NCBI GenBank assembly: GCA_943788505.1
Contig: CALSQR010000001.1
Span: forward strand, 558,001 to 622,000
DNA from: an uncultured bacterium
GTDB taxonomy: Bacteria > Bacteroidota > Rhodothermia > Rhodothermales > UBA10348
Reading direction: 5' to 3'
Length of the DNA stretch: 64,000 nucleotides
Of the stretch, positions 9,462 through 52,917 are shown one piece after another (position 1 is the first letter of the stretch; every line of letters starts with the position of its first letter). The translations under genes and the position numbers were made by a program. A model generated the notes under the pieces. The model was not told the DNA's origin. It did not search any database and saw only the letters and a list, made by a program, of their open reading frames with translations.

Positions 9462-10250
9462 CTACTGCAAAGTATCTGCCGCAAAAGCTGCAGCTGAGCC
9501 CAAAAGAAACCCAGTCAGCACGTCGGTGGGATAATGGACACCCTTCCAGATCCTGGACGTGCCAATAGAAACAGCCCAAAAAGCGGCTGCTGGACCAGCA
9601 AGCCTAGGTTGTTTCCGCAATATCCAATAGGAAGCGGATACAGCTGCCAGGGACGAATGACCTGAAGGAAACGAGGAATAATCTCCTAACCCCCGACGCT
9701 GCTCCGAAGATAGCCGACTCCCCAACGCAGGAACTGAAACGTACGGGCGTGATCGCTGCGAGATGCGTTTGAGTAGAAATGTGCTACCTGCCGTAGCAAT
9801 CCAAGCACCAGAGAAGCCTAGTGCGTCGGATGAAGAGACAGAATTAGACACCAATGCAGCCACCCACCAGGCAGGCACCGAGCCAAACATCAATGGGTAC
9901 GAAGACTTATCTGCTGCTCCCATCCAGGCGGAAAACAACCGGCTATCGGTGCCATTGAGCGCCACAACAAGTCGTAGCTCGATACCTGTATTTCGGGAAT
10001 AGGAGCCGTTTAGGGCAGGATTGCCTACGAAATGATTAGAAGTTGCGGGCTCCAGTAGTTGCTGATTCGACGGCTGCTTGAAATCAGCAGCAAGTATCTC
10101 GTGCTGTATCGAAGAACGAGTTACGTCTAGTTCTACCACAAACGATTGGGCTGCTGCCGGCAACCCTGTTGCCGGCAGCAGCCCAATTATCACAAACAGA
10201 ATTGATTGGGAAGGACCCCTATGCTTCAGCCACTTCTTTAGCCACACCAT
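9462..10250 (-). CDS. PAP2-family phosphatase with signal peptide
   Basis: A 262-residue PAP2/vanadium-haloperoxidase-fold phosphatase, probably acting on lipid phosphates in the envelope. All three catalytic motifs are visible: KRISQRSRP (about 161-169), PSGH (195-198) and [12 protein letters not shown] (232-243), containing the nucleophilic His and its Asp partner. The N-terminus has a cleavable-looking signal ([20 protein letters not shown]). The open frame begins with a TTG at 10262. I choose the ATG at 10250, which still overlaps the end of recA by 32 nt. A perfect 20-bp inverted repeat lies inside the signal-peptide codons (see 10145-10187). Confidence 0.88.
10145..10187. repeat. Perfect 20-bp inverted repeat inside PAP2 signal-peptide codons, just downstream of recA
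   Basis: Arms 10145-10164 and 10168-10187 are perfectly complementary and enclose a 3-nt loop (CCT). The RNA hairpin would be very stable. In the recA/PAP2 direction it starts 32 nt after the recA stop codon and is not followed by a T-tract. It could act as a 3'-end stabiliser or partial terminator for recA, or throttle PAP2 translation. It also encodes part of the PAP2 signal peptide ([14 protein letters not shown]). Confidence 0.9.
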
Positions 10251-11265
10251 TCGTGCTCTCAACTATTGGAATAAGGCCTAGAATTTCCTTGACCTTAAGA
10301 GTGATCTCTTCCCTGATAGAGTCGTTTTCACGTAGCCACGCCTTAGCTGAGTCACGGCCTTGCCCAATCTTTATGTCTCCATAGGAGAACCAAGACCCAG
10401 CCTTGTTAATGACTTCATTTTCGACGGCTACATCGACAAGCTCACCCATGGATGATATGCCTTCTCCGTATATGATGTCGAATTCAGCCTCACGGAAAGG
10501 TGGCGCTACTTTGTTTTTGACCACTTTTACGCGCGTCCTATTTCCAACAACCTCTGTGCCATCCTTGATAGCCCCAATACGCCGAATGTCCATACGAACG
10601 GACGCATAAAACTTGAGAGCACGCCCGCCTGTAGTCGTTTCTGGACTTCCAAACATCACGCCGATCTTCATCCTAATCTGGTTGATAAATATCAACACCG
10701 TCTTGGTCCGGTTGATGGTGCCTGTCAGCTTGCGAAGGGCCTGACTCATGAGCCGTGCCTGAAGACCCATGTGACTGTCTCCCATGTCGCCTTCGATCTC
10801 TGCGCGTGGAACCAATGCTGCCACTGAATCGATAACGATTACGTCGAGTGCACCACTACGAACTAGAGTATCACAGATGTTAAGGGCATCTTCCCCTGTA
10901 TCTGGCTGTGAAACGAGTAGATCGTCTACCATCACGCCCAACTTTTCAGCATAGCTGGCATCAAAAGCATGTTCGGCATCAATGAATGCGCAGGCCCCTC
11001 CCGCTTTCTGAGCTTCCGCAATGATATGCGTGGCCAATGTGGTCTTTCCAGATGATTCGGGACCGTAGATCTCGACGATACGTCCACGCGGAACGCCGCC
11101 TATACCTAGTGCTGAGTCGAGCAACAAGGATCCGCTGGAAATGGAAGCAATACGCTCAGTAGGGCTGTCCCCGAGCCGCATAATAGCTCCTTTTCCATAG
11201 TTTTTTTCGATCTGTTTCAGAGCCAGATCAAGGGCTCGCTGCTTGGCAGAATCCTGCGTGCTCAT
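10219..11265 (-). CDS. recA: Recombinase RecA
   Basis: Canonical 348-residue RecA. The N-terminal helix '[20 protein letters not shown]' is followed by Walker [10 protein letters not shown], the 'FIDAEHAFD' and '[18 protein letters not shown]' Walker B region, the MAW motif and loops L1/L2 ('[18 protein letters not shown]', '[14 protein letters not shown]'). It drives homologous recombination and, in organisms with LexA, co-proteolysis. cinA lies upstream on the same strand, as in several other phyla, but separated by 399 nt holding several dyad-symmetric elements, so recA probably has its own promoter. The start is an ATG. The end overlaps the PAP2 phosphatase. Confidence 0.99.
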
Positions 11266-11438: not shown

Positions 11439-11520
11439 TTGATGTTATTCATCCGGACGGACTAGAAACGCTTATCTCAGCATCTTTGCATCCGACTCGA
11501 ACGAACAAACCTAAGGTAAA

Positions 11521-11551
11521 CAAGGGGGGTGTCACCCCAATGTCATAGGCT
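11521..11551. promoter_or_regulatory. Candidate operator shared with the addB/exonuclease intergenic region (copy A)
   Basis: The element reads GGTGTCACC, four bases, TGTCA, one base, AGG, preceded by a G-run. It matches the element near 51948-51969 at 17 of 22 aligned positions with no gap, plus the G-run in front. The two TGTCA/TGACA half-sites are spaced exactly 11 bp (one helical turn) in both copies. It lies about 260 nt upstream of recA. Confidence 0.5.
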
Positions 11552-11664: not shown

Positions 11665-12936
11665 TTACTCTGGCTCAAATGCCAAAACCACGTTTTTCAG
11701 TATCGCTAAAGCTGATACCACGGCGCGCTCCTTGTTTCGCAGCCTCTCCTTGCCGAGCGTCATTTTCACAGCTGATGTTCTTTTTTCGGTAGAGACCCCT
11801 ATCCAGAGGGTGCCGACAGGCTTTTCTCCAGATCCTCCCCCCGGACCCAAGACACCCGTTGTACTTATGCCGATTGAAGCATTCAAGCGATGCCGAACCC
11901 CTTCTGCCATTTCGCAAGCGGTTTGACGGCTTACCGCTCCGTAGGAATCCAATGTATCCGGTTGAACTCCTAGTGACTCTATCTTTACAGCATTGTCGTA
12001 ACTGATGATGCCCCCAAGCAGATAATCAGACGAACCCGGCACGTTGGTTAGCCGATCAGCTAACCTTCCACCTGTACAACTCTCAGCTGTTGCAACCGTC
12101 ATTTTTCGGTCCCGCAGCAACCTGCCGATCACGGCCTCCAACGTATCTAGGCCTTCTCCATAGATCCACTCGTTTGCCCGGCTACGGATAAATGATTCAA
12201 GCTCTGCAAGCCGTTCCTCTGCAATTGTTGGAGAGTCATCAACGCTAGTAAGACGAAGTCGTAGCGTACTCAGGTTTGGTAGGTACGCCAGAGAGCGGCC
12301 GCCGGTAAGTAATGCTTCGACACCTTCCAGCGCTTCGTGTAAGTGAGATTCTCCCGCGCCCACGGTTAGTAATGTTTTCTGCAGCACGATCGGTGCTCCT
12401 TCCAACTTGGCAATTCTACCTAAAACGTGTTCCGACATGAAATGCTGCATTTCATAGGGTACTCCTGGAAGTACAGCAAGTAATGCTTCTCCATCCTCGT
12501 GGTCAAAACCCCTGAGCAAAGCCGGCGCTGTCCCAGCAGGATTGACAATTGCTTCAAACCCTTCTGGCACCATGCTTTGCGAGATATTGGAAGCCGGCAT
12601 TTCCTTACCGCGCCTAGTAAATCGTTCTCGAACGATGGCTAGAATTTCCTCATCGGAGCATAGCGCAACACCAAAAACATCGGCCACTACGTCCCGAGTT
12701 ATGTCATCATGGGTTGGCCCAAGCCCACCTGTAACGATGACCACTCGGCTCTCTTCCATAGCCCGAAGGAGGGAATCCTTGATTTTTGCGGCTTCATCCC
12801 CAACTGTTTCCATCCTAAGAGGACGCACTCCCAGCGTCGTCAACTGTTCACCAATCCAAGCCGCATTGGTATTGACGATTTGTCCGATCAGAATTTCATC
12901 ACCAATGGTGAGTACGGTTGCTGTGATACTCTTCAA
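11665..12936 (-). CDS. cinA: CinA-like protein (competence/damage-inducible; NMN amidohydrolase type)
   Basis: A 423-residue two-domain protein. Residues 1-170 are the MoCF/molybdopterin-binding-like domain ('VLTIGDEILIGQIVNTNAAW', 'VIVTGGLGPTHDD'). Residues ~260-420 are the CinA C-terminal amidohydrolase domain ('TVATAESCTGGRLADRLTNV', 'GISTTGVLGPGG'), which in characterised homologues deamidates nicotinamide mononucleotide; the N-terminal domain of some hydrolyses ADP-ribose. The start is a TTG at 12936, 3 nt after the pyrE stop. No ATG exists near the conserved N-terminus, so the TTG is well supported by homology. It lies between pyrE and recA on the same strand. Confidence 0.95.
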   Translation of the reverse strand: MKSITATVLTIGDEILIGQIVNTNAAWIGEQLTTLGVRPLRMETVGDEAAKIKDSLLRAMEESRVVIVTGGLGPTHDDITRDVVADVFGVALCSDEEILAIVRERFTRRGKEMPASNISQSMVPEGFEAIVNPAGTAPALLRGFDHEDGEALLAVLPGVPYEMQHFMSEHVLGRIAKLEGAPIVLQKTLLTVGAGESHLHEALEGVEALLTGGRSLAYLPNLSTLRLRLTSVDDSPTIAEERLAELESFIRSRANEWIYGEGLDTLEAVIGRLLRDRKMTVATAESCTGGRLADRLTNVPGSSDYLLGGIISYDNAVKIESLGVQPDTLDSYGAVSRQTACEMAEGVRHRLNASIGISTTGVLGPGGGSGEKPVGTLWIGVSTEKRTSAVKMTLGKERLRNKERAVVSALAILKNVVLAFEPE

Positions 12937-44221: not shown

Positions 44222-45565
44222 CTAGGCCTCGTCCGAAGAACCAAGCTCCAGCTGGCGAGGCGTTCCCTCGATTTGCTTCATTTCGGGTAGTTCACTAGAC
44301 GTGGAAGAACCCAACTCCTTGAACTTGCGAGCCGAAACGAGAACTCGGCTTTCCATCGAGGCTGCCGCCTTGTTGTAGCTTGTGACGGCTGAATTGAGGC
44401 CACGCCCGACTTTGTTGATGTGTTCGGAAAGAACACTTAGACGCTCATACAGCTCCTGCCCCAACCTAGAGATCTTCTGCGCATTCTCGGTTAGCTGTTC
44501 CTGGCGCCATCCATACGCAACAGCCTTCAACAACGTAATTAGGGTGGTTGGCGTGGCAATAACCACGTTGTTTTCCACTCCCTGTTCGATCAGCGTTGGG
44601 TCTATCTCCTGAGCAGCATAGTAGAAGGATTCACCGGGGAGAAACAGAACAACCATGTCTGGAGTGCTATCAAATTGATCCTGATAGGCTTTGGTCGAAA
44701 GTTGCCGAATGTGGATTTTGACCTGCTCGGCATGCTTGCGCATGAAACGTTCTCGTTCGTCTTCATCATCGGTCTCGATGGCGTCCAAATACGCAGAAAG
44801 CGGCGCCTTGGCATCGACTACGATGGTCTTTCCGCCGGCAAGATGAACGATCATATCCGGCCGCAACCTACCACTGTCGGAATGCACAGTATGCTGTTCC
44901 TCGAAGTCGCAGTGGTCAAGCATTCCAGCCATTTCAACGACACGTTTGAGCTGAATTTCACCCCATCGGCCTCTGACAGACGGCTTACGAAGGGCGTTTA
45001 CCAGATTTGCCGCTTCCTTTCGAATCGACTCCTGCGCAACAGATAGTCCTTTTACCTGCTCCGTTATTGAGGTATAGGCACGTTCCCTCTCCTTTTCGAC
45101 TTCCCGAACATGCTTTGAAACGTCTTCTAAGGTCTTGGACAACGGTGAAACGAGCTTTTCGAGCTCTAATTTTCGTTTCTCTTCCTTGGTATCGACGTCT
45201 TGGACCATCTTCTCGATTTGCGTCTTCGCAAGCTCCATGAAGCTTTTGCTATTCGAGTCGAGCGCTTTCCGCGAGAGCGCGTCGAACTGCTTCATCAACT
45301 CCTCTTGGGCCTGAATATGAGCCTCCTGCTTTTCAGCCCACCCCTTTATCTCCTGCTCTCTGGCAGCCCTTTCGGCAGCTAGATCGGCGCGCAGCGAGGA
45401 GTTGGTCTCGCGCAGTACCGCCATTTCAGCCGTTGCTTCCTCCCGAGCGCGCACCAGTTCCTCGCTGCGCGCCGCTAGTCCAGAAGCTTTTGCCTTGAGG
45501 ATAAGAAATACAATACCTGCTCCGATGAGCACTCCGACTGCGCCGGAAACGAATAGTTCAGTCAT
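44222..45565 (-). CDS. rmuC: DNA recombination protein RmuC
   Basis: A 447-residue RmuC-family protein. The start is the ATG at 45565, giving an N-terminal membrane anchor (FVSGAVGVLIGAGIVFLI); an upstream GTG frame to 45637 overlaps addA. Residues ~30-190 are coiled coil. The RmuC nuclease-fold domain includes 'RKPSVRGRWGEIQLKRVVEM', 'RLRPDMIVHLAGGKTIVVDA' and 'MVVLFLPGESFYYAAQEID'. RmuC limits inversions and DNA rearrangements in E. coli. It starts 14 nt after the addA stop, so it is likely the third gene of an addB-addA-rmuC operon. Confidence 0.94.
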   Translation of the reverse strand: MTELFVSGAVGVLIGAGIVFLILKAKASGLAARSEELVRAREEATAEMAVLRETNSSLRADLAAERAAREQEIKGWAEKQEAHIQAQEELMKQFDALSRKALDSNSKSFMELAKTQIEKMVQDVDTKEEKRKLELEKLVSPLSKTLEDVSKHVREVEKERERAYTSITEQVKGLSVAQESIRKEAANLVNALRKPSVRGRWGEIQLKRVVEMAGMLDHCDFEEQHTVHSDSGRLRPDMIVHLAGGKTIVVDAKAPLSAYLDAIETDDEDERERFMRKHAEQVKIHIRQLSTKAYQDQFDSTPDMVVLFLPGESFYYAAQEIDPTLIEQGVENNVVIATPTTLITLLKAVAYGWRQEQLTENAQKISRLGQELYERLSVLSEHINKVGRGLNSAVTSYNKAAASMESRVLVSARKFKELGSSTSSELPEMKQIEGTPRQLELGSSDEA

Positions 45566-45579
45566 CTTGATAGGCTCAA

Positions 45580-48500
45580 TCAATGGTTGACGGGTATCGC
45601 CCGCCCGAGTGCAGTTGACCAGATAATTCCCTTGCACGACTGGTCGTCAAAAAGAGACATCCAAGCGTCAACGTATGCTTCTATCTGAGAGGCATGACGC
45701 GTGATTAGGGTCTTTTCGTCTGCTGCATCCGATTTGTAGTCTACAATGGTCCAGCTGTCATCCGTTCGGAAGGCAAGGTCTACGATGCCCGAATAGAGTA
45801 CGTCTTCTCCCTCTTCGTCACGCTGAAGAGTGAATGGAACCTCCGTTAGTACTCGATCAGCATTTTTCAACGTCTGCCACACTTCCGACTCCACAAATTT
45901 TAGGAGTCCGATTTCGGCTACATTCTGTAGTGCTGAGCGCACAGTGCTATCCGCCGAAGACAGGACTGCTTGAACGATATCCTGAACATCCGTCTCTGAC
46001 ACGCTCTTCTTTCGATATGCAACAAGAGACTCGAACATCGTGTGCCATGCCGTTCCCACTTTGCGACCATCGGGACGAGACGACTGTTTGGGTCCTTCAT
46101 ACGAACTCTGGGCTTTCTCCAACTCGCCCTCCTCAGACTCACTTGGACGTAAAACTCTCCATGTACTCGTTTCAAGCGCCGAAATCCGGTCCAGCAGATC
46201 TCCTTCGGCATTTTCACGCGCCCAGTCAGTTGGTCGTTTGCGACGTCTGAACCCGGGCAACGTATCCGATGCGGTGGGAAGCACCTCTAGGGAGTCAACC
46301 TCCGCTGCCACTAATGCAGGGATGAGTTGATCCCATGTACCCTTTCCTTCTTCAGCATGAGTACAAACGATAAGTTGCTCAATGGCCCTTGTTGCTGCGA
46401 CATAAATCAGACGGTTTTCCTCGGCCTGCTCGTATCTTTTTTCCTCCAGGGCAGCTTGAACCCATCCAAAAGGCTCGAGCAGGCGCGTGCTGTATTGACC
46501 AACCGTTGACTTTACTACAGCTAATCCGTTCAGAGCAGGACCGTCCCGCCAAATATGACGGTCCGGCTTGTGATCCTTTTTGGCTATAACATCCGCTAAA
46601 ACAACTCGCTTTGCCTGTAACCCCTTGGCTCCGTGAATGGTCATAATCCTCACACTGTCTCTGAAGGGCACATTGTCCGAGAAAAGCTCTAGACTTCGCT
46701 CACCAGATTGATACCTAGCTATTTCCCGGACACAAGCAGGCATGTCCTTGCCTTCGCCTTGAAGCCTGGAAAAAAGCTCACCAATCATTTCCATCATTCC
46801 AACGGCAACATCTCCATCTGCGCGCTGCCTTAAAGCACCCTCTATTCCACTGTCAGCCAAAATCTTTTCCCAAAGAGTTAGCGGGGCGTATAGTCGAGTC
46901 CACTCTGCCCATTCCCTGAGCTTTAGAGAGGCGTTTCGCATGGACTCGGGAATGTCAGGATTTCCCACGGGAATCGTCAACCAAGCATTCCATGATCCTC
47001 CAGCGATGCGATATGCATGCAAATCCGCATCAGATACGCCGAACCACAGAGATGTCAATGTCGCAGCAAGGGATACATGGTCAGTTGGATCCACCAGACA
47101 CCGCAGCAGATTGTGAACGAGAGAAATGACATCTGACACCTCGTCTCCCTTCCCTCCTTCTAAGGCAACTGGGATACCTTCCTCACTAAGGATATTGAGG
47201 AAAGCTGGCACCCGCGAGTGTCCCCTGACCAAAATAAGCCAGTCTCCATATCCTACTTCAGCCTTTCCCGACGCTCCATCCACTGACTCGTGGATAATGG
47301 ATGCTATTGCACGTGCTTCGGCCACTGTGCGCGTCGTGGGCGCTCTTCCTGCTTGTTTACCGACGCACACCCTCCGGACTGCCTCGCCCTCGTGCAGCGT
47401 CCCTTTTGCGGGCTCTAATGGTTGCCAATTTGCTTGATATGGTGCCACATCCTCATCGAAGAGAGGTTTGATTGCTTCATTTACCCAAGCACACACCCGC
47501 TGATCCGACCGGAAATTTGCCGTAAGCTGGAGATGTCTGCCCCCCTTTTCGGAGAGTGCAGAACAAACAGCTGAAAATGCCTGGAAATCAGCCTTCCTAA
47601 ACCTGTAAACCGACTGCTTATCATCCCCAACAACGAAAAGCCTGCCGGGAAGTAAGTCGTTTTTTCGCCAGTCATCAGGATTCAAAGAGCTTGCGCACAG
47701 GTTGAACATCAAAGATGCCTGCACGGGGTCAGTATCCTGAAATTCATCGACTAAAACACGAGTAAAACGCTGCTGAAGCATCTCCCGTACTCGCTCATGA
47801 TCACGGACAATTCTATTCGCTTCCCTAAGTAAATCATCGTAGGTCAACCACCCCAACGAGAGGCGTTCGTCCCGATAGGCGTCTGTAAGAGAGGTGACAA
47901 ATCGAAGTGCTGCATCATGTAGCCAATGTTGCCACTGTTTCAGGGCAGGCTGTACCGTATCGATGACATACTCCAACAACGCCCCCCCAGCACAAAGGTC
48001 GTCTTCTCCGTCCCGAAGAGCGTAGGCTAGTGCTCCGCTTTCAGATGCCTTCTTTCCCCACTGCCGAACGGTTACGTTGAACGTTGGTGGGTCGGCCGTT
48101 TTTAGTGACGACACGATAATTTCCAGTACCTGGATTCGTTCAAGATCGGTAGTCACCGCAACAGGTTGAACCAATTGCCAAGCGCGTTCAATTGCCAACT
48201 GAAATGGCCCGGGCTTTCCAGTTTGTGGCAGAAGAGGGTAGATCTTCTTCATGCAATCAGCTATTGGCACAAAGACAGAGACCACCTCAGGACGCTCTAC
48301 TCCGCTCTGAGTGAAGGTCACACCTGCGTTTTTAATACACGTGTCAAACAGATGGAACAGAGCTTCATCAGGAATCTCCATTTCGCGTAGAAGCGCCAGA
48401 TCCAAGTCTCCCTCTTCCGTGCGTTCTCGGATAGAACGGTTCCAGAAAGTCTTTCGCAGTTTTTGCTCATCGGCATCGTCAACTTGCTCGAAATCCGGTG

Positions 48501-48990
48501 GTATTCCTGCCGCAACGGGGTGATATCGGAGCAGACGTGCACAAAAAGAGTGAATCGTTCCCACAAAAGCATCTTCGCTGCGCTCCAACGCTGCCTCAAT
48601 TCGCTGTGATTCTAGCAGCCACTCAGCCTTCACCTCACCAGAACTACTGTTAATCCTCTTTCCGATATCCTCACGCGCTTCCATTAAGCCTGCAAAAAAC
48701 CTTTCTTGAAGCTCTCCAGCCGCCTTCTTTGTAAACGTAATAGCGACGAGCTCATTGACAGGAATACCTGATCGAATGAGAGCAATCAACCGCTCAATGA
48801 GAGCCGTCGTTTTTCCAGAACCTGCGCCCGCACTCACAATGATATTAGATGTGAGATCAAGGTCTTTATCTAGAGACACGGGTACTGAAAGACCTCGTAT
48901 TCCTCGAATTATTCGACGGCCCGCTTCGTCAGGAGCGTCATCAAACGAAGGGGGAGTTTCCATTCCTGTCGTGTCGTTGTTCGTTTTCAT
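45580..48990 (-). CDS. addA: AddA/RecB-like helicase-nuclease (UvrD family with C-terminal PD-(D/E)XK nuclease)
   Basis: A 1,136-residue SF1 helicase-nuclease. Walker A is VSAGAGSGKTTALIERL (near residue 55); other helicase motifs are 'LVAITFTKKAAGELQERF', 'RVLVDEFQDTDPVQASLMF' (Walker B), 'LFVVGDDKQSVYRFRKADF' and 'VRIMTIHGAKGLQAKRVVLA'. The C-terminal nuclease has 'GTAWHTMFESL' and 'GIVDLAFRTD' with 'WTIVDYKSDAAD'. With AddB it would process double-strand ends for RecA loading. The start overlaps the addB stop as ATGA. The gene order addB-addA matches the classic arrangement. Confidence 0.93.
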   Translation of the reverse strand: MKTNNDTTGMETPPSFDDAPDEAGRRIIRGIRGLSVPVSLDKDLDLTSNIIVSAGAGSGKTTALIERLIALIRSGIPVNELVAITFTKKAAGELQERFFAGLMEAREDIGKRINSSSGEVKAEWLLESQRIEAALERSEDAFVGTIHSFCARLLRYHPVAAGIPPDFEQVDDADEQKLRKTFWNRSIRERTEEGDLDLALLREMEIPDEALFHLFDTCIKNAGVTFTQSGVERPEVVSVFVPIADCMKKIYPLLPQTGKPGPFQLAIERAWQLVQPVAVTTDLERIQVLEIIVSSLKTADPPTFNVTVRQWGKKASESGALAYALRDGEDDLCAGGALLEYVIDTVQPALKQWQHWLHDAALRFVTSLTDAYRDERLSLGWLTYDDLLREANRIVRDHERVREMLQQRFTRVLVDEFQDTDPVQASLMFNLCASSLNPDDWRKNDLLPGRLFVVGDDKQSVYRFRKADFQAFSAVCSALSEKGGRHLQLTANFRSDQRVCAWVNEAIKPLFDEDVAPYQANWQPLEPAKGTLHEGEAVRRVCVGKQAGRAPTTRTVAEARAIASIIHESVDGASGKAEVGYGDWLILVRGHSRVPAFLNILSEEGIPVALEGGKGDEVSDVISLVHNLLRCLVDPTDHVSLAATLTSLWFGVSDADLHAYRIAGGSWNAWLTIPVGNPDIPESMRNASLKLREWAEWTRLYAPLTLWEKILADSGIEGALRQRADGDVAVGMMEMIGELFSRLQGEGKDMPACVREIARYQSGERSLELFSDNVPFRDSVRIMTIHGAKGLQAKRVVLADVIAKKDHKPDRHIWRDGPALNGLAVVKSTVGQYSTRLLEPFGWVQAALEEKRYEQAEENRLIYVAATRAIEQLIVCTHAEEGKGTWDQLIPALVAAEVDSLEVLPTASDTLPGFRRRKRPTDWARENAEGDLLDRISALETSTWRVLRPSESEEGELEKAQSSYEGPKQSSRPDGRKVGTAWHTMFESLVAYRKKSVSETDVQDIVQAVLSSADSTVRSALQNVAEIGLLKFVESEVWQTLKNADRVLTEVPFTLQRDEEGEDVLYSGIVDLAFRTDDSWTIVDYKSDAADEKTLITRHASQIEAYVDAWMSLFDDQSCKGIIWSTALGRAIPVNH

Positions 48991-51857
48991 GACGTGATGG
49001 ATTTTTCCCGGAATGCCCAGCCTTCATAAGCGTCAGTTTCGGCAGGATCTGAATCCCTAAACTTCTCCCTGATCATATGCTTTCTCGCATTGAGATCGCC
49101 GCAAATAGCTTTAAAATCACACCATTGACATGTCGTATTCGGGTCAGGCGCTGGCATAAAGTGATTTGAAGCGACTCTTTTCAAAACACTATCAAGCAAG
49201 GGTTCAACTTGCTCCCGCGAAGGAGCCGCAACTTGACTCACCCAACCAGATCCCTTTCTGGATGTAAATACATACTCAGCCAAAGACACCTTTTTCCCGG
49301 TGGTTTCAGACGCTGCCCACGCATACAGTGCCCATTGGATTTTTTCATTCATCGATAAGAGCTTGTCCGGCACAAAACCATCCGGCTTGCTGGTTTTGAA
49401 ATCGATGATCACCCATGACCCATCATTGAGCTCATCAATTCGATCAATGCGCCCGGTTACCGTGATCTCTCCCTGATCGGACCGAAATCGAGCCGGTGGA
49501 GCGTCCGACGATTCATGATCGGAAAACGAAAACTCAGCATGCACTGGCTCACGCTCATCGGCAAGCTGTCTTTCTCGCCTGAAATACGTCCGGACCCCGT
49601 GAGCCAGAGACAGATATCGAGCATGCACCATAGCTTCAACATCGTCCCCTGAGCGAAGCGCCTGACGCTCTACAGCAGCCCTAAGATCGCGCAACATCTG
49701 CTCTTCGTCTGAAGAAGCGAACCCTGCCATTTTCTGAATTCGAGCACGGGTATGACGTTCAAACAACTCATGCAGAACATTGCCCTCCGAGGCAGCGTCC
49801 ATCCATTCCTCTTCGTTTTCGGCTCCAGCGCGAAGCTTAAGGACGCTACTTAGGAAATATCTATACGGGCAGGAGAGCATCACCTCAAGTCTGGAAGGCG
49901 ACATCCTCAATTCTATTAGCTGCTCTTCATCTGAGGAGCCGTTCTTATAGTGAGATGCAACCATTCCATCATATTCGGTCCACCCTGACTCATTTCGTTT
50001 GGCTTCTGCCTGTAAGCCACGCAAAACAGAGGGAAATGCCGGGGCTTCCACACGCCAAGGATCCCGACAAAATCGATCGGCCATGTCAATACCGCCCATA
50101 CGATGCTCGGCACGGATTTCCTTCATCTTCGCGATTTCGACTAAGGAGCTACCTGGAAAGAGAATGCGTTCATCAGCAACGTCCCATGCAGGCACCGAAC
50201 AAATCAATCGGTCTCCAAATCGCCGTTTTAGTTCGGCAACAAGGTGCCTTGCGGGTGTTGGATCACCATAGCCAGAAGGTATAGTCGATTCGTGTCCTAC
50301 AGGATGCGTGGATCGTTCCGAAGCGCTGGTCGATGAGGCTTGATCATCCAAACCCAGCACATAACATGTACTCCTGGGACCATAGCCCGCCTCAGACAAG
50401 GCGGTAACGTGTAAACCAGATCCATCGTCACGGATGATCCGCCGATGGCTCGATAGCTGATCCAAAATCGATCCGGCTAACCACGTTGATTCCACCGGAA
50501 GAAAATCGCTCTCTAGTAATGGTTCTAGCGCCTTCTCTAGATTCGACCTGTCTTTATTTCCCTCCAGACTTTTGACCCCTGCTAGACGCAATAGGCTCCA
50601 GATGCGCTCCACGAAAGTTGATGGGGACGTTACGCTATCAGGTAATCTCTCTCTAATTGACATAAACCATTTCAAGAGCCTATCGACGTCCTCCCTGCTC
50701 ACGCGATCCCGTGCCGCTCCCTCAAGGAGGATTGATCTAAGATCCGGATTTGATAGGGCTGCCGGCGTAAGCCTGAATACGGAGAGCAATCGTGCTATTT
50801 CCAACGGATCAAGCAACTGATCACGTCTGGATGCTGAAGCGCGGGTATCCTGCTGAACCTCAATCGGATTGAAGACCGTGCCACTTCGCAATAAATCCTG
50901 GAGTTCCTCGACCTTATATCCAGAAGCAACCCATGACAAAAACCCTCTAAGAGCTATATCTACCGGATGAATCGTTCCATCCTCGTTGCCACTTGATGTC
51001 AACGGAATCGATAATCTGCGACAGGCCGCCTCGATGTGGGGCCTATATAAGTCATTAGACGAGACAGCCAATTCGACATCATCAAACGATTCGCACCGTG
51101 TCAGGATATCCGAAAAAACGGACCACACTTCCTCTCGCCTGGTTGCTGCCTGAATGACACGAACGTTGGAGCCAGTGTCCAAGGAGACCTTTGGTACCGT
51201 CCAATCAGTGAATACGCTTCCAGCCTGCAATGGCTCATTAAAGCCTGGGGCTGATTGATCACCCAATAAAATGCTTACGCGAGCCCCATTGGACAGGCCA
51301 ACCAAGAGGTCTTTTTGTGCAGGAAGCAATTGCACATTCCTACATACTACCAGTCCTTCAAGATGACGGGCTTCGCAGAACTCCTCAACCTGTTCAACAG
51401 CCACTCTATGGACATCGGCCATGTCCAATCTACCCGTTCCATTCAGATAGTGTTCGTACGCTCCAAAAAGCTCTGCATATACCTCCTGACTTGGATTTCG
51501 CTGGCGTTTTGCAGCCCATGATGCGTCGCGCCCTGCAAGCCGATCTGCTTGGATTGACTGCACGAGCGTAGAAAGAGAGGAAGAGAATAACCGGCCCTCT
51601 GGGTTTGAGGTTGTCCGCAAAGCCGATGCTAAGACGACTTCAAGTTGCCAGGATGAGACAAGTCGCGCTGCCTGCCAGGGCTGCATGGCTCGCCAAACGT
51701 GCAAGGCTAAACCTGCAACAGATACCGCCTCCACATTTACGAGAGAGCGCCCAACCCGTGCAGCAGCAGTTTTTAGGGCAACTGCCATTTGTGCAGATGG
51801 TGCAACAATCAACTTTAAGCCGGATGGATCGGCGCAAGCTTCAAGACCAGACAACAA
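48987..51857 (-). CDS. addB: AddB-like PD-(D/E)XK nuclease subunit
   Basis: About 956 residues. The C-terminal nuclease is clear: 'MSPSRLEVMLSCPYRYFLSS', 'EGNVLHELFERH', 'VTGRIDRIDELNDGSWVIID' and then FKTSKPDG. Four cysteines expected to hold an Fe-S cluster are present (the Cys of CPYR, and CQWCDFKAIC). The N-terminal helicase-like part lacks a visible GKT Walker A ('LIVAPSAQMAVALKTAAARV'), as in RexB-type partners. No in-frame ATG exists near the N-terminus: the listed start is a TTG at 51857. The frame stays open upstream to a TAA at 51906-51908, reading 'HPSSYLHRQLL', so a slightly earlier non-ATG start is possible. Confidence 0.85.
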   Translation of the reverse strand: MLSGLEACADPSGLKLIVAPSAQMAVALKTAAARVGRSLVNVEAVSVAGLALHVWRAMQPWQAARLVSSWQLEVVLASALRTTSNPEGRLFSSSLSTLVQSIQADRLAGRDASWAAKRQRNPSQEVYAELFGAYEHYLNGTGRLDMADVHRVAVEQVEEFCEARHLEGLVVCRNVQLLPAQKDLLVGLSNGARVSILLGDQSAPGFNEPLQAGSVFTDWTVPKVSLDTGSNVRVIQAATRREEVWSVFSDILTRCESFDDVELAVSSNDLYRPHIEAACRRLSIPLTSSGNEDGTIHPVDIALRGFLSWVASGYKVEELQDLLRSGTVFNPIEVQQDTRASASRRDQLLDPLEIARLLSVFRLTPAALSNPDLRSILLEGAARDRVSREDVDRLLKWFMSIRERLPDSVTSPSTFVERIWSLLRLAGVKSLEGNKDRSNLEKALEPLLESDFLPVESTWLAGSILDQLSSHRRIIRDDGSGLHVTALSEAGYGPRSTCYVLGLDDQASSTSASERSTHPVGHESTIPSGYGDPTPARHLVAELKRRFGDRLICSVPAWDVADERILFPGSSLVEIAKMKEIRAEHRMGGIDMADRFCRDPWRVEAPAFPSVLRGLQAEAKRNESGWTEYDGMVASHYKNGSSDEEQLIELRMSPSRLEVMLSCPYRYFLSSVLKLRAGAENEEEWMDAASEGNVLHELFERHTRARIQKMAGFASSDEEQMLRDLRAAVERQALRSGDDVEAMVHARYLSLAHGVRTYFRRERQLADEREPVHAEFSFSDHESSDAPPARFRSDQGEITVTGRIDRIDELNDGSWVIIDFKTSKPDGFVPDKLLSMNEKIQWALYAWAASETTGKKVSLAEYVFTSRKGSGWVSQVAAPSREQVEPLLDSVLKRVASNHFMPAPDPNTTCQWCDFKAICGDLNARKHMIREKFRDSDPAETDAYEGWAFREKSITS

Positions 51858-51940
51858 CTGCCTGTGTAGATATGAGGAGGGATGCTTGATGAGTCGTAAG
51901 TTAGGTTAAGCGAAATATTGGTCGCGATTGGATTATACGA

Positions 51941-51977
51941 AACAGGGGGTGACACCAGATTGTCACAGGGGTCCCCT
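51941..51977. promoter_or_regulatory. Candidate operator shared with the recA upstream region (copy B)
   Basis: The element reads G-run, GGTGACACC, four bases, TGTCA, one base, AGG. The half-sites TGACA and TGTCA form an inverted repeat with a 6-nt spacer. It matches copy A near 11526-11547 at 17 of 22 ungapped positions. A further palindrome AGGGG-T-CCCCT (51967-51977) overlaps its end. It lies ~85-120 nt upstream of addB and ~105-140 nt upstream of the DEDD exonuclease ATG, so it could control both divergent units. Confidence 0.5.
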
Positions 51978-52080
51978 ACCTTTCAATTGCCCGCGCGATA
52001 ACAAAGGAGTTCCTCTCCAAACACTTCGGCCGATTAGGGTCCGGAGCCCATTAGAAGAAACAGAACTGCAGCGAGATTCC

Positions 52081-52917
52081 ATGAGCAAAATAATGATCGC
52101 CTTCGATGTCGAGACAACCGGTCGCAATCCGGATACTGACCAGATTGTCGAGTTGTCGATGTGTCTGTACGAAGGAGGCACGGAAGAGTCATACTATCAG
52201 CTTTTCAAGCCGGAAGTACCCATTGCAAAAGGAGCCCAGGCCGTTCATGGGATTAGTATGGAAGACCTCGCCCATGAACCGACATTCGCTGAGGTTGCGG
52301 ATGAGGTTGAGGCGTTTCTCGCTCGAGCAGACGTTATTGTAGGGTATAACGTACGGTTTGATATCCGATGTGTCGAGAAGGAATTTGAACGGATCGGGCG
52401 AACGATCGATTTGTCATCTAGGCTAGTGGTAGACCCATACAGAATATGGCAATCGCTAGAGCCTCGTAGCCTTACCGATGCCTACAAGCGCTTTGTTGGG
52501 GGCGAATTCGAAGATGCCCACTCTGCCGAGGCTGATGTTCAGGCAGCGGTTGATGTACTTCGCGGGATACGACGCACGTTTAATCTGGAAGAAACATCGT
52601 GGGAAGAGCTCGCCAAGATGACCAACCCGGAAAAAGAATATTGGGTTGGACCAACAAATCATTTTACCTGGTCGGTCGGTGAAATTGTTTTCAGCTTCGG
52701 TAAATACAACGGCCGTCCACTGTTCGAAGTGAAGGATCGTGAGGCTAGCTATCTACAATGGGTGGAACGGTCTGACTTCCCTGCTCATGTCAAAAGCTTG
52801 TGCAAAGGGGCCCTTTCCGGCATATCAGAAGAAGACTTCAACAAACGCATCCTTGAGCACTATGGATCACCTCCTCCGGACGGGCTGGGCATTGTTTCAG
52901 AAGAGCCCGAGGGCTAG
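52081..52917 (+). CDS. DEDD-family 3'-5' exonuclease (DnaQ/epsilon-like)
   Basis: A 278-residue exonuclease-fold protein. The start is the ATG at 52081 (MSKIMIAFDVETTG); the frame is open upstream only via a TTG and overlaps the putative operator. ExoI is 'FDVETTGRNPDTDQIVELSM' (Asp, Glu). ExoII is in 'VIVGYNVRFDIRCVEKEF' (Asp) and ExoIII in 'FEDAHSAEADVQAAVDVLRG' (His, Asp). Residues ~200-260 ('FSFGKYNGRPLFEVKDREAS', 'YLQWVERSDFPAHVKSLCKG') are a small C-terminal domain like the one in some predicted RNase T/DnaQ proteins (DUF3820-like). It is divergent from addBA-rmuC and suits DNA repair or proofreading. Confidence 0.92.
   Translation: MSKIMIAFDVETTGRNPDTDQIVELSMCLYEGGTEESYYQLFKPEVPIAKGAQAVHGISMEDLAHEPTFAEVADEVEAFLARADVIVGYNVRFDIRCVEKEFERIGRTIDLSSRLVVDPYRIWQSLEPRSLTDAYKRFVGGEFEDAHSAEADVQAAVDVLRGIRRTFNLEETSWEELAKMTNPEKEYWVGPTNHFTWSVGEIVFSFGKYNGRPLFEVKDREASYLQWVERSDFPAHVKSLCKGALSGISEEDFNKRILEHYGSPPPDGLGIVSEEPEG

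Follow-up and report, generated by a model that had tools for sequence, protein, structure and literature searches.

The window analysed here is a 64,000-nt stretch (C1:558001-622000) of the genome of an uncultured Rhodothermales bacterium (G000; 2.75 Mb, 2 contigs). Two of its intergenic gaps, one between a cinA-like gene and recA and the other between an addB-like gene and a DEDD exonuclease gene, each hold a copy of a short element with two half-sites. The features of the two loci are as follows.

10219-11265, minus strand: recA (NCBIfam TIGR02012, 570 bits), predicted target gene
11513-11547, minus strand: candidate WYL-type promoter element of recA, TATGACA-TTGGGG-TGACA (11547-11530), reading towards recA
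11518-11513, minus strand: -10 box TACCTT of the recA element, 16 nt from the second half-site
11665-12936, minus strand: cinA-like gene upstream of recA (NF001813, 389 bits)
44222-45637, minus strand: rmuC (PF02646, 5.5e-103), overlapping addA
45580-48990, minus strand: addA-like helicase gene, overlapping addB and probably in the same operon
48987-51857, minus strand: addB-like gene, with a PD-(D/E)XK nuclease domain at the C-terminus
51932-51965, minus strand: the palindrome read towards addB, TGACA-ATCTGG-TGTCA, with -10 box TATAAT at 51937-51932
51950-51982, plus strand: the same palindrome facing the exonuclease gene, TGACA-CCAGAT-TGTCA, with -10 box TACCTT at 51977-51982, 16 nt from the second half-site
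52081-52917, plus strand: DEDD/DnaQ-type 3'-5' exonuclease gene (exo; PF00929, 9e-21), predicted target gene

The overlapping addB, addA and rmuC genes probably form one operon, and in two relatives (G015 and G019) the element also targets rmuC on its own. The palindrome between addB and exo can be read both ways, with TACCTT leading to exo and TATAAT to addB, and the divergent layout of addB-addA-rmuC and exo recurs in many relatives. At recA, a second box, TAGGTT, lies 5 nt beyond the TACCTT box of the element.

The two copies had been noticed earlier as a 22-bp pattern, GGTGWCACCN4TGTCANAGG, and both were found when the genome was searched with it: GGTGTCACCCCAATGTCATAGG at 11528-11549 (2 bp from the start at 11526 given in the earlier note) and GGTGACACCAGATTGTCACAGG at 51948-51969 are its only exact matches in the genome. 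Their ungapped identity at 17 of 22 positions and the spacing of exactly 11 bp between the half-sites of each were confirmed. Within the window the coincidence is modest, with at least two matches at up to 3 mismatches arising in 4 of 100 shuffles. Genome-wide, with 3 mismatches allowed, the 22-bp pattern gave 10 matches (forward and reverse) versus 9 for a reversed control, no better than the control because it included flanks that are not conserved. The G-run, GG/CC and AGG, described in the earlier note as parts of the element, do not belong to it: the flanks vary, the conserved unit is TRTGACA-N6-TGWCAY with a -10 box, and the signal emerged only once the pattern was reduced to TGWCA-N6-TGWCR plus the -10 box. 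The pair within the window is by itself only mildly unexpected and the reality of the element is settled by conservation; on this comparison of sequences, the observed element is confirmed as real, far beyond chance.

Alignment of the sites gives T-[AG]-TGACA-N6-TG[TA]C[AG] as the conserved sequence. Its core is TGACA-N6-TGWCA, with a distance of 11 bp between the two half-sites, and a TAnnTT(TG) -10 box follows 16-17 nt downstream. TGWCA-N6-TGNCR was present upstream of recA in 30 of 30 loci (the own genome and 29 Rhodothermales relatives), ~77-290 bp from the gene, the conservation that the earlier note proposed to look for. Of the loci examined, 16 had an equivalent element before the exonuclease gene, nearly always as TRTGACA-N6-TGTCAY; none was seen in genus g3, in which addB and exo directly adjoin. 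In 38 of the 46 recA and exo sites (83%), a TAnnTT box began 16 or 17 nt downstream of the first base of the second half-site, compared with 25% when the downstream bases were shuffled. When the T of TAnnTT is taken as position -12, the dyad extends from ~-39 to -24 and its centre falls at ~-31.5 to -32.5, on the -35 box.

Many genomes carry a second conserved element upstream of recA (e.g., L045, L048 and L052), GGTTATATT-N~13-GTGTC, between cinA and the WYL-type element. Read on the opposite strand, it resembles GACAC...TATAAC.

The genes behind the element were collected with a strict, promoter-linked pattern, TGACA-N6-TGWCR-N11/12-TAnnTT, which gave ~130 matches in 41 genomes versus 4 for the reversed control. 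Among 100 distinct sites in the loci fetched from these matches, with some gene assignments made by eye, the recurrent downstream genes were ssb (9), TnpB (9), an orphan family of 200-240 aa (9), an orphan family of ~118 aa (8), addB (6), radA (5), recA (4 in this locus set), Rad52-like genes (4), exo (4), a ruvB-type cluster (3), recR (2), rmuC (2) and holA (2); polA, ruvA, uvrB, an sbcD-like gene, a DNA-alkylation-repair enzyme and others had a single site. The predicted targets are mainly DNA-repair genes. Of the genes that the earlier note named for a genome-wide check, ruvA/B were among the targets and lexA was not. A relaxed pattern applied to the own genome gave 10 matches versus 0 for the control, located at recA, addB, exo, radA, a sigma-70 family factor gene and two orphan families (one site counted twice, once per strand), together with two doubtful ones. 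The latter, C2:386058 on the minus strand (before a thioredoxin-like gene) and C2:535609 on the plus strand (inside a coding region), look like chance matches.

Several of the downstream genes have features of their own. The first orphan family (~205-240 aa, with the motif TPxGExxVDIVLExGGRRIAI; e.g., L154:1280-1906, minus strand; alignment A1) has the element upstream in ten genomes and gave no Pfam or NCBIfam match; the assignment of a 208-aa target family as ImuA was likewise unsupported by any Pfam or NCBIfam match. The second (~118 aa, with an invariant HRATLN; e.g., L153:1992-2441, plus strand; alignment A2) has the element upstream in eight genomes, and its gene in the own genome adjoins dinB in convergent orientation. 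The own genome and G010 each have a sigma-70-family (ECF-like) factor gene with the element (L325:739-1482, minus strand; L186:609-1211, plus strand), a possible second regulatory tier. The uvrB gene of G034 (L158:514-2601, plus strand), seemingly split by an intein-like insertion, also carries it, and in G027 it lies upstream of a CBASS cGAS-like gene (L215:925-1968, minus strand). At the genes for TnpB, an IS200/IS605-type RNA-guided nuclease, the element sits a few bases before the open reading frame (L180, L181, L182 and L133 [Rhodothermus genomes G040 and G026; plasmid NC_013502.1, 88399-89999], L175, L179, L195 and L198), as if these genes were wired into the host damage response.

The element co-occurs with one gene for a WYL protein. 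Across 98 genomes of the order, strict-pattern matches occurred in 53 of the 60 genomes with an orthologue of this gene (called at E < 1e-50) and in 5 of the 38 without it (Fisher 4e-14, a value that overstates independence because the co-occurrence is phylogenetically structured). Seven genomes had the orthologue and no strict-pattern match (G107, G116, G128, G142, G153, G162 and G174); of the five with matches and no orthologue, four are at most 92% complete and the fifth, G081, has a single match. Family f14, genera g24, g26 and g32 of f15, and genera g22, g27, g33 and g40 of f13 lack the orthologue and contained one match in all, and both the orthologue and matches were present in g28 and g34 of f13 and in g29 and g36 of f15. 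One genome each from f13/g22 (G036, which we take to be Salinibacter ruber), f14 (G037) and f15/g24 (G038), all without the orthologue, had no element upstream of recA.

The pattern was also seen in other Bacteroidota outside the order, with family f28 not beyond the control level. In G093, from another order of the class and which we infer to be Balneolales-like, the element stands at recA. Among the targets outside the order, DinB-family, glyoxalase-like and GyrI-like genes and others of this kind are frequent. A WYL gene lay within the same 2.5-4 kb at 16 of 42 motif loci from the phylum outside the order, loci that were hand-picked, not random, from the motif list and blind to WYL genes, versus 0 of 84 loci around recA, lexA and exo that served as background.

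The own genome encodes exactly one WYL protein (C2:1022787-1023755, outside the window; 323 aa), and a single WYL gene is also found in most family-level relatives. By eye, the gene lies downstream of an mnmG/rsmG-like pair. In the Rhodothermus genome G040 its orthologue is at C1:3192297-3193253. The protein has the domain order HTH-WYL-WCX (PF08279/PF19187, PF13280 and PF25583, all over the cut-off), and its sequence matches in the PDB are PafBC (1e-21), PafC (3e-12) and DriD (7e-5). A structure model of an orthologue with 82% identity was of modest confidence (mean pLDDT 75.5, pTM 0.48), and its best Foldseek matches were the structures of DriD (1.9e-16) and PafBC. In an alignment of 21 orthologues, three recognition-helix arginines (R40, R41 and R45) are invariant, as is the RNFRLD loop of the WYL domain, which has two Arg and a Phe as in the ssDNA-binding beta4/beta5 loop of PafBC (residues matched by eye). 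With the G-[IV]-P-L turn as anchor and an alignment by eye, R41 and R45 line up with R46 and R50 of PafB from M. smegmatis, recognition-helix residues that are essential for its function (PMC6789036); the motif SRRT-x-FRD is widespread among proteins of this HTH family.

We consider it likely, with a probability of roughly 80%, that the element is the site of a WYL-family activator and that its reader is most likely the only WYL protein of the genome. Because there is a single WYL gene, the regulator would probably be a homodimer. No copy of the element was found in the promoter of the WYL gene itself; PafBC levels are reported to be unchanged on damage.

The most obvious other candidate is LexA, with the element as an SOS box that represses recA and addB/exo. 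The sites do stand before recA and other repair genes, and a lexA gene is present in the genome (C1:1096545-1097129; 109.3 bits, just below the cut-off of 110.95). However, lexA is nearly always autoregulated, and the element was found in 0 of 30 lexA upstream regions, which hold a different, AT-rich palindrome of the ATATGT / ATGTGT...ACACAT type. Moreover, G036, G037 and G038, without the WYL orthologue, keep a lexA-like gene, yet their recA has no element. The LexA reading is accordingly very improbable, and the suggestion in the earlier note of a site for a DNA-damage regulator, "LexA-like or other", survives in its second half: the marking of repair genes throughout the order and the conservation at recA and exo/addB speak for such a regulator, not for LexA. 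The ATATGT / ATGTGT...ACACAT palindrome also occurs separately upstream of recA in several genomes, so that in several genera recA seemingly has a LexA-type box and the element side by side. The own genome has several tandem CTTCCCAACGTTGACG-like units immediately before lexA (L063, C1 near 1097129); these were not seen in the lexA upstream regions of the relatives examined.

Another dimeric regulator with a 16-bp core, for instance of the CRP/FNR family, would fit the 5+6+5 layout of the dyad, and the WYL protein is a candidate proposed from sequence comparison. Class II CRP/FNR sites are centred at -41.5, whereas the dyad is centred at ~-31.5 to -32.5, on the -35 box, and such a regulator would leave the co-occurrence and adjacency with WYL genes unexplained; we regard this as unlikely, although less so than the other alternatives. 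TGACA might instead simply be the -35 element of a housekeeping or ECF sigma-factor promoter common to repair genes, which would agree with the constant spacing to a TAnnTT(TG) box of the Bacteroidota type. The two half-sites, however, begin 16-17 and 27-28 nt upstream of the -10 box instead of ~23 nt, conservation covers both halves as a dyad that drives the divergent addB and exo promoters, 4-10 promoters are reached per genome and not hundreds, and the element is lost together with the WYL gene, which makes a plain promoter improbable, only a shade less so than LexA. The possibility raised in the earlier note that the copies are remnants of a small intergenic repeat family agrees with two look-alike intergenic copies and with several copies before TnpB genes of mobile elements. 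We reject it as hardly credible: the 22-bp pattern occurs only twice in 2.75 Mb, the flanks vary while the core and the -10 spacing hold, orthologous positions are kept across an order, and the ~4-10 copies per genome are placed at promoters with a fixed spacing to the -10 box.

A model with the WYL protein as the reader can be built on the conserved element and its geometry, the repair targets, the absence from lexA promoters, and the co-occurrence and adjacency with WYL genes, all of which the genome comparison demonstrates; binding by the WYL protein, its homodimeric state, activation rather than repression and an ssDNA signal are what we infer by analogy. In this model, a WYL dimer would read the two TGWCA half-sites, one on either side of the -35 position, at promoters that have a TAnnTT -10 box at a fixed distance from the dyad and no good -35. 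DNA damage would generate ssDNA, which would be bound in the WYL domains and switch the activator on; such gating by ssDNA seems reasonably probable, with somewhat less assurance than the site assignment. The active protein would then recruit or adapt the housekeeping RNA polymerase, and recA, addB-addA-rmuC, the exonuclease gene, radA and other repair genes would be turned on alongside LexA but independently of it.

These sequence relationships suggest a LexA-independent and apparently one-protein WYL repair regulon in Bacteroidota. On a larger scale, we slightly favor a history in which a WYL damage regulon is old in Bacteroidota; in Rhodothermia a single, non-local homodimer would have become the main LexA-independent activator of a core recombination set (recA, ssb, radA, addAB-rmuC, ruv, recR and polA), a one-protein counterpart of PafBC, while some lineages, including Salinibacter, would later have lost the regulator and its sites together and the TnpB genes of Rhodothermus would have been wired in. 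If true, a clade with a cultured thermophile, Rhodothermus marinus, would gain a defined motif together with its regulator gene and a list of targets, one homodimer with a two-headed site would do the job of the PafB/PafC pair, and WYL-based damage control of recA would be far more widespread than known. TGACA-N6-TGWCA located 16-17 nt before TAnnTT might also serve as a predictive rule for WYL targets across the phylum.

Repair genes under ssDNA-sensing control independent of LexA are well described for PafBC in mycobacteria and, with a small regulon, for DriD in Caulobacter; in the literature searched, we found no such response in Bacteroidota or Rhodothermia. The non-canonical LexA networks of Bacteroidetes concern the same phylum and their SOS genes include recA, but their regulators are S24 peptidase repressors, their motifs are GGA-N5-TCC and CTAA-N5-TTAG, both different from the WYL element, and the paper mentions no WYL protein (PMC8565304). 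SiwR of M. smegmatis is a homodimeric WYL activator that binds a palindrome between -35 and -10 and drives neighbouring DinB/YfiT-family genes (PMC10693628), similar to the neighbours of many WYL-adjacent copies outside the order. Compared by layout and not by site letters, SiwR is a local regulator, whereas the Rhodothermales protein is encoded away from its putative targets, which are repair genes throughout the genome.

DriD and PafBC are both ssDNA-gated WYL activators. DriD is a homodimer encoded by one gene, and its site, ATACGAC-N7-GTCGTAT, covers part of the -35 and keeps a fixed distance to the -10 (PMC12340889). A palindrome on the -35 read by a single-gene homodimeric WYL activator is what we propose for Rhodothermales, where the homodimer is presumed. 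The half-site and spacing of DriD differ from TATGACA-N6-TGTCATA, its targets are few (didA, bapE, recJ and dnaG) in contrast to the core recombination set, and by sequence the Rhodothermales WYL protein is closer to PafC/PafBC (1e-21), with DriD more distant (7e-5). PafBC runs the LexA-independent DNA damage response of mycobacteria (PMC5656591, PMC6789036, PMC11804915), and its P1 motif, tTGTCRgtg-8nt-TAnnnT, has 16 nt from TGTC to TA (PMC5656591). The two systems share the HTH-WYL-WCX class-A architecture, a TGTC half-site whose distance to the -10 box is 16 nt and a recA-led repair regulon parallel to LexA. In mycobacteria, recA is transcribed from P2 under LexA and from P1 under PafBC (PMC11804915), an arrangement that the dual boxes upstream of recA in several Rhodothermales genera resemble. 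The two systems differ in that PafB and PafC form a heterodimer from two paralogous genes at the pup-proteasome locus, next to pafA, and bind one half-site, whereas in Rhodothermales a single gene, which follows mnmG-rsmG-like genes, probably provides a homodimer for an element with two.
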